Of a DNA stretch of 64,000 nucleotides, positions 4,574-60,589 are shown in pieces. The notes under the pieces are model-generated. The model saw only the letters and a list, made by a program, of their open reading frames with translations, did no database searches and was not told the origin of the DNA. Each line of letters starts with the position of its first letter. Position 1 is the stretch's first letter. Made by a program: the position numbers and the translations under genes. The stretch covers positions 1 to 64,000 of the forward strand of contig CALGZB010000016.1 in NCBI GenBank assembly GCA_937934655.1, given 5' to 3'. This stretch comes from an uncultured Acidimicrobiales bacterium (lineage in GTDB: Bacteria > Actinomycetota > Acidimicrobiia > Acidimicrobiales > SHLQ01).

Positions 4574-5638
4574 TTACAGCAGCGTCGCGCCTAGCCCCGG
4601 CTCGGGTAATGTCGAGAGCATCCCGTCGATAAGGGCAAAGCCACCGCTTGCGACATCGCGAGCAAGGTCGAGGCTGCCGTCGAGATCGAGGTACCGGGTG
4701 GCCGGTGATGCGAGGGCCGCGTGGAGTGCTGCCGCGATGCTCACCACGCTTTCGTCCATGCATCCCCACATGAGGTCGGTGCCAGTTGCGTCGGCGACGT
4801 CGGCGATATCGAGCGCCGGTCCGATTCCCCCGCACTTCATGAGCTTGATGTTGAAGATCCCAACGAGTGCTGGGGGCCCAGCTAGACGGTGGGCATCGCT
4901 TGGAGAGTGCAGCGATTCGTCGGCGGCGATGAGGCGACGGTCGTCGTCGCCGAGGCGGAGAAGGTCCTCGTCGCGATCGTCGGGAAGTGGTTGTTCGACA
5001 AACTCGATATCGAGTGGTTCGGTCTCGACCAGGAACCTGGCGAGGTCATCGATGGAGTAGCCCTGGTTTGGGTCGACTCGAATGGTTGGGTCGGGACCGA
5101 TTCGGGAGCGGAGTTGCTCGAGTCGATCCAGGTCGTCGTCGATGGACTTCCCGAGTTTTACCTTGAGCGAGCGAAACCCCCGCCCCATGTACTCGTCGGC
5201 CTCGGCAAGGACTTCTTCGGCGGACTCTTTGATGCCAATCGTGACCGAGGTCGGCAGCGAGGTGTGGCTCCTGCCCAGCAGGTCGACCAACGGGATGCCG
5301 GCGGCCTTTGCCACTGCGTCGTGGAGCGCAATGTCGAGTGCAGCGCGCGCTGCCGGGGCATCTGGATACGCGGTTTGGATACGGCTTCCGGTTTCGGTGA
5401 GGTCGATGCTGAGTCCGACGAGGTCGGTAGCCGCCTCAGCGAGCGCTGCCATGGCGGTGTCGTCGGTTTCGCCGGTGATGAGCGGGGCGGTGGACCCCGT
5501 ACCGAGCCCAACCACGCCAGCGTCGGTGTGGATCTCGACAACGTGGTTCGAAACGGCCGAAATGGTGTTGAACGCAATCGTGTAGGGGCGGGCAAGTTCC
5601 ATGTCGATGAGCTGATGGGTGACTTTGGTGATCTTCAT
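4574..5638 (-). CDS. dgcA: Enolase-superfamily epimerase/racemase (dipeptide-epimerase type; candidate N-acetyl-glutamate racemase DgcA)
   Basis: SLKVKLG, IRVDPNQGY, FVEQPLP, IAADES, NIKLMKCGG motifs; stop lies 2 bp from the DUF1611 gene start-side neighbour's stop, i.e. tightly linked to 5641-6738. Confidence 0.75.
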   Translation of the reverse strand: MKITKVTHQLIDMELARPYTIAFNTISAVSNHVVEIHTDAGVVGLGTGSTAPLITGETDDTAMAALAEAATDLVGLSIDLTETGSRIQTAYPDAPAARAALDIALHDAVAKAAGIPLVDLLGRSHTSLPTSVTIGIKESAEEVLAEADEYMGRGFRSLKVKLGKSIDDDLDRLEQLRSRIGPDPTIRVDPNQGYSIDDLARFLVETEPLDIEFVEQPLPDDRDEDLLRLGDDDRRLIAADESLHSPSDAHRLAGPPALVGIFNIKLMKCGGIGPALDIADVADATGTDLMWGCMDESVVSIAAALHAALASPATRYLDLDGSLDLARDVASGGFALIDGMLSTLPEPGLGATLL

Positions 5639-5640
5639 GG

Positions 5641-6738
5641 TTATTCCTGGGGAGTCTGGGCGGCGATATAGGCGTGAATCGGGTCGATGAGATCGCTGAC
5701 CCCTTCGAGAAGGGGAGCGACGACCGGAATGTCGAGTGAGCTTCGGAGAGCGTCGCGTTCGGCGACCAGTTGAGCCGTGGTGAGGTTCTCGCCGTTCAGA
5801 CAGACGCCAAGCACCTCACTTCCGTACATCGAGATCAAGGCGATTTCGTCGGCGACGGGCGGAATGCGTTTGTCGATCGCTTCGCAGCCATCGAACCAGA
5901 TGCGGCCGGGGGAGTGCTGGAGAATGGCGCCTTTGGCATCGCCGGACAGGAGGAGTTCGGAGCCGCATGGGCCTGACGGGTTTCGGAGCGACGATTGGCC
6001 CTCCAACAAAATGAGGTCCGGCTGCTCGGCGTTCCAACATTCCACGATGGCATGTTCGAGTTCGCCACTGACAAAGTCGTTGGGCACCGAATCGAGGACG
6101 AAACCGTAGGTGGCGCCTTGGAGCCAGCCCGTTTGTCCGGTGGCGATAAGCGCCGAATGGGTTCCGGCCTCTTGTAGAGCATGATGAAGAAAGCGGGTGG
6201 TGGTTCGTTTGCCGACCGCGCAATCGGTGCCGAGCACTGCGAGGCGGGGAGCGGTGACCGTATCGATTTCGCCGGTCCAGAAGTGAAGTTCAGATGGCGG
6301 TTTGGGTTTGCGAAGGTCGAGAAGTTCGAGGTCGCGTTCTGCGGCGAGCTCGACGAGCAGGGGTACCTCGGAGAGGTAGTCGTGAACGCCGGCGGCAACG
6401 GACATGTCATGGCGGAGCGCATCGGCAGCAGCCTCGATGAGCTGTTTCGACAGTTGGCCGCCGTGGGTGGCGACACCGATAATGGCCCACGTAGGGGTCT
6501 TCGCTCCGGCTGCGATGAGCCCGGCTAACTCGTCGAGCGATTCCAGGATTGGGATGTCGCGGTGGATCCCGTCGAGGACCTCTCCGGCGTCCTTTCCGGC
6601 GTTGTTGTGGTCGGCAACCGCAACGATTTCGAAGCGCTCCGAGTCTCGGATGAGACCATGAGCGACCTTCGAGTACGGCTCGTGAAGGCGGCCACCTGTG
6701 AGTAGGACTGCCCCAGGTCGATCGTCGGTAATCATCAT
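5641..6738 (-). CDS. dgcN: DUF1611-domain protein (candidate D-glutamate N-acetyltransferase DgcN)
   Basis: LLTGGRLHEPYSKVAHGLIR...LAVLGTDCAVGKRTTTRFL...IATGQTGWLQG...LEGQSSLRNPSGPCGSELL: DUF1611 N-terminal Rossmann and C-terminal P-loop signatures. Confidence 0.75.
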   Translation of the reverse strand: MMITDDRPGAVLLTGGRLHEPYSKVAHGLIRDSERFEIVAVADHNNAGKDAGEVLDGIHRDIPILESLDELAGLIAAGAKTPTWAIIGVATHGGQLSKQLIEAAADALRHDMSVAAGVHDYLSEVPLLVELAAERDLELLDLRKPKPPSELHFWTGEIDTVTAPRLAVLGTDCAVGKRTTTRFLHHALQEAGTHSALIATGQTGWLQGATYGFVLDSVPNDFVSGELEHAIVECWNAEQPDLILLEGQSSLRNPSGPCGSELLLSGDAKGAILQHSPGRIWFDGCEAIDKRIPPVADEIALISMYGSEVLGVCLNGENLTTAQLVAERDALRSSLDIPVVAPLLEGVSDLIDPIHAYIAAQTPQE

Positions 6739-54083: not shown

Positions 54084-54425
54084 GTGTTTCTCCTGCCTGA
54101 TGCGGTGACTGCTGGGGTACTACTCGGTGGGTACTGCGTGGTCTCATCATGACGGAGGGTGCCTGTGGGATGGAAGAGGACAAGGCTCGGGAAATCGCGA
54201 TATTCCTCGGGATTTGTTGTGGATGATCTTGTGGAACCTGTGGATAATGGGGCTGATGTTGCTTGTGTTGTTTCAGATTGCAGATGGGTCGTCGATCGCA
54301 AGCCGGTCCGAAAGCTGGAGCGAAAGCTGGTCCGAAGGTGGTTCGAACATGCACGGCCAGGACGTCAGCGCCGCTGTATCGGCTGTTCTTCGACTCCGCG
54401 CCAGCGTTCGGTCTGGTTGCGCCGT

Positions 54426-54460
54426 TTGCTCCGCTTTGCAAATCGCCGATCCATCGACCC
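54426..54460 (+). repeat. Dispersed intergenic repeat, copy 1
   Basis: ttgctccgctttgcaaatcgccgatccatcgaccc; 33 of 35 positions identical to 58908-58942. Confidence 0.85.
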
Positions 54461-55739: not shown

Positions 55740-55902
55740 CAAGCTGCCCGCTGAAGCGCGAAAGAACCGTGCTTGGGCGGCCGCAGGTCAAGAATTGATA
55801 AAGATCACGCCTGTACGGAGAGTTTTCCTTAGGTTTTTTCGGTGAGTCGTCGATGCAGAAATGCGCGACCTTCCACGAAACGAAAGTACCGAGGCACCGC
55901 TC

Positions 55903-57156
55903 ATGTCCGAACTGATGCACCTGATTTACAGCAGTGCAGCCACTCAGCAGTTTGATCGCGACGCGCTTGTGCACCTTCTCGACCGGGCCCGCAAGACCAA
56001 CAGCGAGCTCAATATCTCCGGCATGCTCCTCTACATCGATGGGAGTTTCCTACAGGTTCTCGAAGGCGCCCCCGACCAGGTCGAGGCACTCTTCGACCGT
56101 ATCTCCGGGGATCCACGCCACAGCACCGTCGTAAGAATCATCAGCGAACCCATTGCCAAACGAACCTTCAGCGACTGGAGCATGGGTTTCGCTGAGGTGT
56201 CCGCCGATGATCTGAACGAGGTTGACGGCCTCAACGACTTCTTCACCGGCCAAGCGTGTTTTAGCGAACTCGGACCCGGACGAACCAAAAAGCTCCTCCA
56301 TGCATTCAAATCCGGGCGCTGGCGCTCGCGCATCGAAGGGGTGCTCCCAAAGGCCCCACCGTCATCGGCATCAGAGCACCCGGAACCGGCGTCTCCTGGC
56401 GTGTCTGCGAGTCCGCCGCCGGGTACACCAGGGCTCGATGCCCTGCCCGTGTCCTTCGCGTTCCAGCCGATTTTCGACGTGACGAGCCACACAATCTCAT
56501 CGTATGAAGCCATCGTGTGCGACGAGGCAGGTGGAAGCGCGGATGCTGTTCTGTCCTCCTACACCAGCACCGAGCAATCTGGCCTACTCCAACGCGAGCT
56601 TCATCTTCGGGCCGTCGCTCTTGCCGCCAAACTTGGACTCCAGACCGGACTCACCCTGAAGTACGCAGCCCGTGGAGTCGAAGAAGCCGATCAGCTGATG
56701 TCGGCCACACTTGAGATCGCTCGAAGCCACGGCTTTTCGAACAACCAGGTAACCCTCGAAATCGACCAACGCGAATTGGTCGGAGACAGTTCGTGGTTTG
56801 CCTCGGTGATCCAGAAGCAGCGTGGATTGGGGCTCCGGTTTTCGATCGACCACTTCGGCGACGCCCGGTCGGGCCTCAGCTTGATCGATGCCTATCAACC
56901 CGACAGCGTTGCGCTCAATAAGAACTTGGTCGCAAATATCGAAACGCACGGAACTCGCCAAGCGATCGTGCGTGGCGTGATTCAGACGTGCCAGGACCTT
57001 GGTATCGACCTCATTGCCAAATACGTCGAGACCGAAGCCGAGGTGGCTTGGTTTCGAAGCGAAGGCGTTGACCTTTTCCAAGGCACAGTCATTGCACCTC
57101 CAACATTCGAAGCACTGCTGCCCGACGTGCGTTATTCGGGACCTGTTGCGGCATGA
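55903..57156 (+). CDS. BLUF photoreceptor domain fused to degenerate EAL domain
   Basis: BLUF: MHLIYSSAA, NISGMLLYIDGSFLQVLEG, GDPRHSTVVRI, FSDWSMGFAE. EAL-fold region with SYEAIV, LTLKYA, EIDQRE, SIDHFGDARSG, VALNKNLV, AKYVETEAE, FQGTV in place of catalytic motifs. Confidence 0.92.
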   Translation: MSELMHLIYSSAATQQFDRDALVHLLDRARKTNSELNISGMLLYIDGSFLQVLEGAPDQVEALFDRISGDPRHSTVVRIISEPIAKRTFSDWSMGFAEVSADDLNEVDGLNDFFTGQACFSELGPGRTKKLLHAFKSGRWRSRIEGVLPKAPPSSASEHPEPASPGVSASPPPGTPGLDALPVSFAFQPIFDVTSHTISSYEAIVCDEAGGSADAVLSSYTSTEQSGLLQRELHLRAVALAAKLGLQTGLTLKYAARGVEEADQLMSATLEIARSHGFSNNQVTLEIDQRELVGDSSWFASVIQKQRGLGLRFSIDHFGDARSGLSLIDAYQPDSVALNKNLVANIETHGTRQAIVRGVIQTCQDLGIDLIAKYVETEAEVAWFRSEGVDLFQGTVIAPPTFEALLPDVRYSGPVAA

Positions 57157-57914
57157 TTGCCCTCCCGCCCTTCTCGTTTGCGTTCCAGCCGATTTACGAC
57201 ATGGCCTCGGGCCAGATCGTTTCGCAGGAGGCACTTGTCCGCGGGCCAGCGGGGGAGTCGGCCTACAGCGTCCTCAGTCAGCTGACGGCGCCGGGTATCT
57301 ATCAGTTCGACGAACGCTTACGAGCGGCGGCAATACGGCTGGCAGCCGAAATTGGTGGGCCAGAGGCGCTGCATCTGAACCTAAATCTGATGCCGCGCTC
57401 GCTCGAAGTGTCGCCGAGTGCCTTGGCGTCGACGCTCGAAACCGCACAGAACTGCGGGCTCTCGCCCGAGTCGATCACGATCGAGATTACCGAGAGCGAG
57501 ATCATCCACGACATCGAAGGCTTCGTCGCTGTAGCGAATGAATACCGCGGCACAGGCATCCAATACGCGATTGATGACTTCGGCGCCGGCTATGCCGGCC
57601 TCTACCTTCTTGCGGAGTTTCAGCCTGATGCGCTGAAACTTGACCGTCAGCTGGTTGCCGGTATCGAACGCGACGGACCTCGACAAGCAATCGTCCGTGG
57701 GGTGCTGCGGACCTGTGAGGATCTCGGTATCGATGTCATCGCTGAAGGCGTCGAGACCGAGGCGGAGTTCTCGTGGTTTCGTAGCGAAGGGGTCGACCTT
57801 TTCCAGGGCTACCTTCTGGCACGTCCTGGGTTCGAACAGCTGCCCGGAGTGGCGATTCCGGGGACCAGCGCCCGTCCTACTCCAGTAGTCGCACAACTAC
57901 CTATGGCGGCCTGA
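57153..57914 (+). CDS. EAL-domain c-di-GMP phosphodiesterase (intact motifs)
   Basis: SQEALVRGP, HLNLNLMP, TIEITESEI, AIDDFGAGYAGL, ALKLDRQLV, IAEGVETEAE, FQGYLLARP; ATGA overlap with the BLUF gene. Confidence 0.95.
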   Translation: MIALPPFSFAFQPIYDMASGQIVSQEALVRGPAGESAYSVLSQLTAPGIYQFDERLRAAAIRLAAEIGGPEALHLNLNLMPRSLEVSPSALASTLETAQNCGLSPESITIEITESEIIHDIEGFVAVANEYRGTGIQYAIDDFGAGYAGLYLLAEFQPDALKLDRQLVAGIERDGPRQAIVRGVLRTCEDLGIDVIAEGVETEAEFSWFRSEGVDLFQGYLLARPGFEQLPGVAIPGTSARPTPVVAQLPMAA

Positions 57915-57955
57915 CCAGGCTTGTTTCGGGTCGATCAGACGTCGGTAAAAAAGAG

Positions 57956-58005
57956 GAAACCCCGAGTAGCCTCGCAGCTTGCGCCGCTCAACTCCTCGGG
58001 GTTTC
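57956..58005 (+). terminator. Stem-loop after BLUF/EAL operon
   Basis: 11-bp arms gaaaccccgag / ctcggggtttc with a 28-nt loop. Confidence 0.55.
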
Positions 58006-58720
58006 ACATGTGGTCCGAACATACATTCATCCAGCACGACCCGGAATCCTGAAACGTTGTCGCAAGCGACACCGTCTTGATTGTCAACTCCCCGAAGCCT
58101 CGTAGTGCTCTGGGGTAAATCTGAGTCTCACAGCGGGTAAGCGACCTCACCCTCTTGGGAGTCTTGTTCCCGAACTACCCGACGGCAGCTCGTTTCCGAG
58201 ATTCCACTTGGCACAGCTTCGCAACTCATTCATCCACGTTTGTGGACCTTCCCGTCGGTAGGTGCACTCTTGTGAACGTCTGTGTTGTTTCGCTTGGCAT
58301 CCCCGGCGATCTCCGATCTTCCCCATCCGTCGATGGTTCCGTTCACTGATCACGTCGGCGAAACCGATGTGCGAACTGGTAGACCCGCTTCACTCGCCTG
58401 TGTGTGTTGATCTCGCCGAAACAGTGGCACTTCCGAAGAAGGAGCCGAATTTCGGGTTGGTCAGCGCACTCATTTGAGATTGGCTTGTCTGGTCCGATGT
58501 TTTGATCGGCAGCGGGTTCTCGCTCCAGGTGGCTTTGATGCGCTTCTGTTAGCTCGAGCTTGTCCTGACTACCCAGATTGAACCGAAGCTCGCCCCAAGT
58601 AGACGCTTCAAACCGTTGCTTCCGTCTGCGGACCGAAGTCGTTCCGAAGGTTAAACCGTTTGCGTCTCTCGACAACTGCGACTCTTCACCCAACGCACAC
58701 CGAACGTCAAGGTGAAAGCC

Positions 58721-58747
58721 GATTTCCCCAGGAATTCGGGGGAAATC
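58721..58747. other. Perfect hairpin in long non-coding gap
   Basis: gatttcccc-aggaattcg-ggggaaatc, 9-bp arms. Confidence 0.5.
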
Positions 58748-58907
58748 CCCAGGTTTCGCGTGCTTATACACATGTTCATTCACAGAATGGTGGATGATTC
58801 GGAAATTGTCTTCCTGCTTGCGGGTGGTTCCATGTTCGGCAGGGATCCGGGGCCGCCGGATCGGCTGACCTCCGACTTCGCGCTACCGCTCGGGCCGTCT
58901 GCGTTGC

Positions 58908-58942
58908 TTGCTCCGCTTCGCAAATCGCCGATCCGTCGACCC
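58908..58942 (+). repeat. Dispersed intergenic repeat, copy 2
   Basis: ttgctccgcttcgcaaatcgccgatccgtcgaccc; see 54426-54460. Confidence 0.85.
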
Positions 58943-59200
58943 CGGATTCCTGCTTAGGTGGAGTGTCTCTTTAGCCAGTGAAAACAATGGCCTTGGCGTT
59001 CGGTAGAGACTCGAGGTCGGGAGGGGCCTGGAACCAGATGGGGTTTCGGTGCCAGGTGTGCAGCGCTCAAATGAACGAAAGGCTTGCGAGTGGGCGACCA
59101 ACAAGATGGGTGTCGTGCCGGAGTGGGCGGAGGCCGAGGTTGAAGCTAGGGGGTCATAGCGGAGCGCAGAGGAAGCGAGCTTGCGAGCGAACGACCAAAG

Positions 59201-60589
59201 TTACAGCTCGAACTTTTGGTACCCGACTGCGAATGCGTAGACGGCGTTTACGTAGCTGTCGTGGTGGTTGTACGCGAAGTAGCCGCGGCGTAGGCCTTCG
59301 ACTGTTGTCACGTTGCCTGCGGTCCGGCAGAGGTAGTGGGCGGCGGAGAGGGCTGCGTCGTAGAGATTGTGGGGGTTTGCGTCGCCGTTGCCATCGCCAT
59401 CGAGTCCGTTGCCTGCCCAGGTCGACGGGATGAACTGCATGGGGCCGACGGCCCGGTCGAAGATGGGGTCGCGGTCGAGGAGTCCGCCGTCGGTGTCGGT
59501 GATGACCGCAGTGGCCGAGTCTCCGTTGAGCGGAATGCCAATGATCTCTGGGGTCACGAGGCCATCGGAGGCGACTGAACTTGGGTTGGGGGTTCCGTTG
59601 TAGGTGCCGTGTCGGCTCTCTACCCGGCCGATGCCGGCGAGCATCCACCACTGCACGCCGCAGCCGGGATGGATCTCTTCGCTTGCGATCGCGGCGCTGT
59701 TGTACGCATCGAGGACCACAACGTCGAATTCGAGCTCGGGTATGTAGGCGAGGCGTCGGTTGTCGCGCACCGCAGCCTCGAGCTCGGGAATCTTGGTGGA
59801 CGATTCGAAGAGGGCGATGCTCCAGTCCTCGATGTCGTTTTGTGTTGTTGTAACGGTGAGGGCGACCTGGGCGAGTCGTTTCTCGTCGCTGTCTTGTTCC
59901 GTGTCGAGTTTGGCTAGCGATGCTTCGAGCGTTCCCCGGTTCTCGATCTGGACCTCGCCGGCTTCTTCGACGAGCTGAAATGACCGTCCGGCATCGCGCA
60001 TGACGTCGGGGTCGAGGCCCTGAAGCTGGGTGTGGGCGTCGGTGGTTCCCGATGACACGTATTCGCGAACGGCCATGGCCCGAAGGTGATTCTCTATTCG
60101 GTCGAGTTCGCGGACGAGAGTTCGTCGCTCTCGGCGCCGTTCGGTGAGGCGTTCTCGGATGCGGGTCTTGTCGGCCTGCAGCCCAACGAGTTCATCCTTT
60201 GAGGAGCCGAGGGAGTCGCGGGCCTCGGCGATGAGGCGAAGCTGGTTGAGGTAGGACTCTATTGCTGCGTCGTACTCGGGGCTGGTGGCGGCCACCCTGT
60301 CGACACCGGGGCTGAGGTTGGGGTCGGGGATGAGATCGCCAATTTCGACATCGGCGAGTTGCTCGAGTGTGAGTTGCTCTGGTCGGACGGCAATCTCTTC
60401 GCTTGTTTCGCCACTTGTTTCGCCGTCAGGGGTTTCCTGGGCCAACGCGTGGGTGGCGCTCGCGGTGAGGCTCGATGCGATGAGGGCGAGTGCGAGCACA
60501 CAGGCGGCTGCAAGGCGGTATACGCCCGAGATTCGCGCTGGAGGGGCCAGGCGATGGGGGCAAGAGAAGTTGGGTCGACCGAAGGACAC
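59201..60589 (-). CDS. Lytic murein transglycosylase (coiled coil plus Slt/MltB-like domain)
   Basis: GCGVQWWMLAGIGRVESRHG, FDRAVGPMQFIPSTWAGNGLDGDGNGDANPHNLYDAALSAAHYLC. Confidence 0.9.
   Translation of the reverse strand: MSFGRPNFSCPHRLAPPARISGVYRLAAACVLALALIASSLTASATHALAQETPDGETSGETSEEIAVRPEQLTLEQLADVEIGDLIPDPNLSPGVDRVAATSPEYDAAIESYLNQLRLIAEARDSLGSSKDELVGLQADKTRIRERLTERRRERRTLVRELDRIENHLRAMAVREYVSSGTTDAHTQLQGLDPDVMRDAGRSFQLVEEAGEVQIENRGTLEASLAKLDTEQDSDEKRLAQVALTVTTTQNDIEDWSIALFESSTKIPELEAAVRDNRRLAYIPELEFDVVVLDAYNSAAIASEEIHPGCGVQWWMLAGIGRVESRHGTYNGTPNPSSVASDGLVTPEIIGIPLNGDSATAVITDTDGGLLDRDPIFDRAVGPMQFIPSTWAGNGLDGDGNGDANPHNLYDAALSAAHYLCRTAGNVTTVEGLRRGYFAYNHHDSYVNAVYAFAVGYQKFEL

Follow-up and report, generated by a model that had tools for sequence, protein, structure and literature searches.

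The window, a 64,000-nucleotide stretch of DNA from an uncultured Acidimicrobiales bacterium, contains two adjoining genes that encode EAL-domain proteins (Table 1). Pfam identifies a BLUF domain (residues 4–95, 100 bits, E 6.5e-29) and an EAL domain (residues 184–400, E 2.6e-35) in gene 1, and an EAL domain without any BLUF domain (residues 7–225, E 5.1e-49) in gene 2. An in-frame ATG lies upstream of gene 1 at 55861; the start used here (MSELMH) is backed by the relative in genome G002. An earlier note on this DNA had reported that the genes overlap by the sequence ATGA, and this is borne out. From the overlap we infer that synthesis of the two proteins is translationally coupled. Single-chain AF2 models have a mean pLDDT of 72.6 and pTM of 0.56 for gene 1, and a pLDDT of 79.4 and pTM of 0.80 for gene 2. 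The top fold matches of the gene 1 model are structures of BlrP1, with VcEAL next.

Table 1. Features of the BLUF-pseudoEAL / EAL locus in the window
Feature	Position	Strand	Basis
Gene 1: BLUF, capping helices, Pro-rich linker and pseudo-EAL, 417 aa	55903..57156	+	Pfam BLUF and EAL; relatives in eight other genomes; AF2 model
BLUF blue-light sensor domain	55912..56187	+	Pfam; Tyr9, Asn33, Gln51, Trp92 and Met94 present
BLUF C-terminal capping region (GLNDFF...GRTKKLL.AF..GRWR)	56197..56340	+	Alignment
Pro/Ala/Ser-rich linker, fast-evolving, low predicted confidence	56341..56436	+	
Pseudo-EAL domain	56452..57102	+	Pfam; residue alignment to BlrP1
EAL dimerisation helix of the pseudo-EAL (BlrP1 336–353)	56950..57003	+	12 of 18 positions invariant across five genera
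ATGA stop/start overlap of genes 1 and 2	57153..57156	+	Six of seven pairs overlap by four bases (ATGA or GTGA)
Gene 2: solo EAL with all nine catalytic residues, 253 aa	57153..57914	+	Pfam; alignment; AF2 model
EAL dimerisation helix of the live EAL (gene 2)	57675..57728	+	Alignment
Long GC-rich hairpin 3′ of gene 2	57956..58005	+	MFE -25.3 kcal/mol, z -1.98 (weak)

The hairpin 3′ of gene 2 is a possible end of the two-gene transcript; a consensus scan gave no terminator-like site there. Between 57915 and 59200, the roughly 1.3 kb that follow gene 2, there is no convincing gene, and the larger open frame (58346–58783, minus strand) has no Pfam match. Rfam likewise returned nothing within 57800–59300. 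The region at 59105–59200 belongs to an intergenic repeat of about 90–100 bases, with some 25 related copies in the genome at roughly 70–90% identity. A second repeat, at 58852–58942, sits inside 27-nt inverted arms (58839–58953) and recurs at 54370–54460 and on another contig. These dispersed intergenic repeats are a small REP- or MITE-like family. The host genome (4.74 Mb) has 25 EAL matches and a single BLUF domain, that of gene 1, and thus combines a rich c-di-GMP machinery with a lone BLUF domain.

Alignment to BlrP1 allows the two EAL domains to be compared over the catalytic set E188, N239, E272, D302, D303, K323, D325, E359 and Q379 (BlrP1 numbering). The juxtaposition of a dead and a live EAL domain, as originally noted, is evident from the counts: four of the nine residues are present in gene 1 versus nine of nine in gene 2, which has the full set of active EAL phosphodiesterases (PF00563) and, as claimed, intact motifs. 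The motif losses attributed to gene 1 were in part overstated. Five catalytic residues are gone (N239K, D303H, K323A, D325N and E359K), whereas gene 1 retains E188, E272, D302 and Q379. The change from EAL to EAI had been counted as a catalytic loss, yet its Glu, E188, is the catalytic one and is present. An intact catalytic set in gene 1, which would have told against the original reading, is absent from the alignment. With five of nine residues lost, the EAL domain of gene 1 is predicted to lack phosphodiesterase activity; the catalytic phosphodiesterase of the pair would be gene 2.

The BLUF domain of gene 1 (PF04940) aligns with the flavin-site residues Tyr9, Asn33 and Gln51 and with Trp92 and Met94 in place. 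As tabulated, all nine BLUF domains from pairs have Tyr9, Trp92 and Met94, and the Gln column of the same alignment is Q in 9/9. The key residues had been listed from the sequence before; the Tyr, Gln, Trp and Met stand, but the Asn of NISG (N37) does not contact the flavin and is D or G in relatives. The flavin-contacting residue is N33 of RKTN, which aligns with Asn31 of BlrP1. Gene 1 is predicted to bind flavin and respond to light. The capping region that follows is conserved in paired, fused and standalone BLUF relatives. In BlrP1, the BLUF capping helices are the exit of the signal towards the EAL domain, and the compound helix of the EAL domain takes part in the relay (PMC3989770).

The earlier note had proposed a search of genomes for conserved pairs of this kind, and the pair does recur. 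Of 397 genomes surveyed across the order, 20 had any BLUF match; the surroundings of the match were read in those whose BLUF domain resembles that of gene 1, and also in two genomes added by a survey at family level. Among these samples, which are mostly fragmented assemblies, the complete pair was found in seven genomes (that of the window, G000, and G002, G204, G768, G122, G153 and G015), which span five genera and three families of Acidimicrobiales. Two additional copies, in G013 and G769, are incomplete, gene 1 being cut by the contig end. The G015 pair was assembled over two contigs, each of which holds the start of the pseudo-EAL. In all seven complete pairs the order is constant: the degenerate EAL, with two to five of the nine catalytic residues, comes first, and the intact EAL (9/9) second. 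The stop/start overlap is GTGA in G768, and in G015 it is replaced by a gap of 7 bases. Among the 397 order genomes, sequences that match gene 2 closely (at least 230 bits) are confined to genomes with a BLUF-pseudoEAL gene. Because the whole layout recurs in seven genomes, the arrangement is more than chance. G153 also encodes a separate solo EAL protein (locus L141, 985–1818; G153:C370), which has 9/9 catalytic residues and groups with VcEAL rather than with the pair.

Samples taken at higher ranks, 397 genomes for the phylum and 395 for the class, contained no further pair; the BLUF genes that they returned from outside the order lack the architecture of gene 1. A pattern scan of the whole collection added one more near relative, along with a few active BLUF/EAL relatives, fused or split, from other phyla. 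The plasmid search returned fused BLUF-EAL proteins, and the phage search nothing relevant to the pair.

Comparison of the open frames around the pairs revealed no neighbour, besides the pair itself, common to different genera. The adjacent genes encode a dehydrogenase in the window, an acetyltransferase and a TetR protein in G002, SnoaL and an impB/mucB-family protein in G204, an iron-sulfur protein in G768, DUF808 in G122, and a methyltransferase and a ketopantoate hydroxymethyltransferase in G015. Other matches are weak and involve scattered paralogues (dehydrogenases, for example) or antisense frames inside the pair. Neither a MerR-type bluR gene nor ycgZ-ymgAB is present among the neighbours tested (window, G002, G204, G768, G122 and G015). 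With no MerR-type gene among these tested neighbours and no conserved neighbour of another kind, we rejected a BluR-like partner for gene 1. The pair behaves as a stand-alone unit.

What has been retained in the pseudo-EAL domain is informative. In Bd1971, the EAL dimerisation helix comprises residues 340–357 and the compound helix residues 315–321, following Asp306/307 (PMC6717892); shifted to Asp302/303 of BlrP1, these correspond to 336–353 and 311–317. Across the pseudo-EALs of five genera, 44 of 217 positions are invariant, and 12 of these fall within the 18 positions of the dimerisation helix (p 9e-6 by a hypergeometric test that assumes independence of sites and of lineages, with five genera only). 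The compound helix, by comparison, has one of seven positions invariant in the pseudo-EALs versus five of seven in the live partners. Both genes retain the dimerisation helix, while the compound helix is degenerate in gene 1. Identity to active EALs, expressed as the ratio of the helix to the rest of the domain, is 1.8–2.05 for the pseudo-EALs, compared with 1.29 for E. coli BluF and 1.41 for BlrP1; two more active relatives have ratios of 1.31 and 1.64. The dimerisation helix is thus selectively retained in the pseudo-EALs while catalytic segments drift. Gene conversion as the source of this similarity is unsupported, because the pseudo-EAL is no closer to its own live partner (identity 0.66) than to the live EALs of other genomes (0.66). 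One turn off the helix centre, at position 347, all pseudo-EALs have Gln, whereas the live EALs have Arg (Cys in G015). It is tempting to speculate that this difference may help favour unlike pairs. Retention of the helix could instead serve homodimers of the pseudo-EAL, or its folding.

Substitution patterns indicate that the pseudo-EAL is maintained. In the closest pair of sequences, G013 and G015, the domain differs by 20 synonymous and 2 non-synonymous changes (dN/dS 0.03); in the same comparison dN/dS is 0.10 for the BLUF part and 0.07 for a flanking gene frame. Between G122 and G153, it is 0.11 for the pseudo-EAL and 0.07 for the live EAL. The domain is therefore under purifying selection. 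Ordinary decay, in which gene 1 is a once-active BLUF-EAL protein that is losing its effector and whose EAL domain is now functionless, would fit the loss of catalytic residues and the pseudo branches in the EAL tree, which are longer than the live ones. It is ruled out as an account of gene 1 by these ratios and by conservation of the architecture in five genera, with an open frame in all relatives, and we give it almost no weight.

A maximum-likelihood tree built from 23 EAL domains gathers the seven pseudo-EALs into a single group (88/96) and divides the live EALs between two groups that match in membership. Active BLUF-associated EALs of other phyla, fused or split, are placed among the EALs of the pairs. 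One old duplication behind the pair is favoured by this tree over several separate ones. The suggestion that a duplication split the roles of sensor and enzyme holds insofar as the division exists, is old and has been maintained; independent duplications in the two sub-lineages are not rejected by the tree (p-AU 0.125 and 0.135). Although G015 is from the same family as the genome of the window, its pair clusters with one from a different family, a placement that points to horizontal transfer of the two-gene unit.

How might the two proteins work together? The two protomers of BlrP1 form an antiparallel dimer, and each BLUF domain signals through the interface to the EAL domain of the other protomer (PMC8846402). 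By analogy, gene 1 would be the sensor subunit, a BLUF domain on a non-catalytic EAL barrel that keeps its dimerisation face, and gene 2 would be the catalytic one, an EAL enzyme that lacks a sensor. Synthesis of the two subunits would be coupled through the four-base overlap. Their EAL barrels would pair through the dimerisation helices, giving a unit with one sensor and one active site. The light signal would leave the BLUF domain through the capping helices of gene 1, pass across the interface to the compound helix of the live partner, which is kept, and there alter metal binding in the active site of gene 2. Since such pairing would place the BLUF domain of gene 1 against the EAL domain of gene 2, catalysis in gene 1 would be needless. 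The model explains both the parts that were kept (BLUF, capping region, dimerisation helix) and those that were lost (the catalytic and compound-helix residues of gene 1). Blue light probably raises the activity of gene 2; we assume an increase because the three studied systems, BlrP1, BldP and PapB-PapA, are light-activated.

We consider it likely that the two proteins form an obligate heteromer that works as one light-controlled c-di-GMP phosphodiesterase; here we infer complex formation, light response, the sign of the effect and catalysis. The narrower proposal, an obligate heterodimer in which the pseudo-EAL brings the photoreceptor in trans to a sensorless EAL, with an interface possibly specialised against homodimers, we hold with less assurance, as somewhat the better bet. 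Given the pairing in five genera, the fixed gene order, the purifying selection, the single pseudo-EAL group and the helix retention, a heterodimer of paralogues is the best reading of the pair. One point against a heteromer is that the EAL domain of gene 2 has everything needed to act alone as a homodimer.

The alternative that comes closest retains a complex of the two proteins and changes its geometry. PapB, which is BLUF only, and PapA, a solo EAL, form a heterotetramer (PMC8846402), and the BLUF domain and capping helices of gene 1 might similarly bind a homodimer of the live EAL in a two-plus-two assembly, leaving the pseudo-EAL as an extra platform for c-di-GMP or another partner. In a gammaproteobacterial MAG (locus L059), a BLUF-only gene overlaps a solo EAL gene, and its capping region resembles the one in gene 1. 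This arrangement leaves unexplained a dead EAL domain of 220 residues under strong purifying selection, with a selectively conserved dimerisation helix, and we regard it as rather unlikely. It is also conceivable that gene 1 is a light-driven protein-protein switch acting on some other target, such as a regulator, and that gene 2 is an independent, co-expressed phosphodiesterase. E. coli BluF, a BLUF-degenerate EAL protein that antagonises the MerR-type repressor BluR (PMC3509220), has the substitution D303H in common with gene 1 and, like it, lacks D325 and E359. Strict one-to-one co-occurrence and overlap with a live EAL would then be unexplained, the tested neighbours include no MerR-type gene and no conserved third gene, and BluF does not show the retention of the dimerisation helix; we therefore judge such a switch improbable.

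Inactive EAL domains are also likely c-di-GMP sensors (PMC5301497), and the pseudo-EAL, which in gene 1 keeps E188, E272 and Q379, might bind the ligand without cleaving it and so tune the sensor or the partner, as do degenerate EALs of the LapD or FimX type. Yet most pseudo-EALs of the pairs have lost the ligand-contacting residues R192, D215 and N239, and those of G122 and G153 lack Q379 and E188; we consider a receptor role very unlikely.

The heterodimer of paralogues would share features with several known systems. One is PapB-PapA of Rhodopseudomonas palustris, in which a BLUF protein regulates an EAL domain on another protein within a heteromer (PMC8846402). In both cases sensor and phosphodiesterase are separate, the EAL protein is sensorless, and control in trans via the BLUF C-terminal helices is described for PapB-PapA and predicted for the pair. 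As with PapA, a separate solo EAL is encoded alongside the BLUF gene, here with a four-base overlap and all catalytic residues. PapB has no EAL domain, whereas the sensor encoded by gene 1 carries a degenerate one, which would offer an EAL-EAL interface between paralogues. BlrP1 of Klebsiella pneumoniae is the best match to gene 1 in both sequence and structure and has the same domain order and fold. It is a single active chain that forms a homodimer, however, while in the pair the fused EAL is dead and activity would reside on a second protein; neither gene 1 nor gene 2 combines BLUF with an intact EAL in one chain. E. coli BluF (YcgF) resembles gene 1 in fusing BLUF to a degenerate EAL, D303H included. 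It differs in being an anti-repressor of the adjacently encoded MerR-type BluR, in having no tandem live EAL gene, and in its diverged dimerisation helix. For gene 2, the best sequence match in the structure database is VcEAL of Vibrio cholerae (PDB 6ifq), also a solo EAL with an intact active site; unlike gene 2, VcEAL lies outside the BLUF-associated group in the tree.

The earlier note knew of no described system with this arrangement, and we found no description of the BLUF-pseudoEAL / EAL layout in the open-access literature searched, nor of a pseudoenzyme architecture built on a pair of paralogues for EAL enzymes. Both a BLUF domain joined to a dead EAL (BluF/YcgF) and a BLUF protein that controls a separate EAL (PapB-PapA) are already known. 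What appears to be undescribed is their combination, a fused BLUF-dead EAL with a live EAL partner.

Many bacteria have catalytically dead EAL domains of unclear role. If the proposed heterodimer is correct, the pair would be a clear case of a dead EAL turned regulatory subunit of a live one, in which the partner, the signal and the interface can all be predicted. The pair would also allow trans-signalling by BLUF across an EAL dimer to be tested, which the BlrP1 homodimer cannot offer because only the pair would hold a single sensor and a single active site per unit. Since the pair recurs in unrelated chromosomal settings, there are several independent examples to study, and it is a possible two-gene optogenetic tool. 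The same parts occur in other layouts as well. The overlapping genes in the gammaproteobacterial MAG (4998–6195), the second of which encodes an intact EAL, are organised like PapB-PapA, and a Lentisphaerae MAG (L058, 4998–6236) encodes a fused, active BLUF-EAL protein. The BLUF domain of the latter contains a 15-residue tandem repeat (AKLLSRARAYNEQNG), either an assembly error or a recent duplication.
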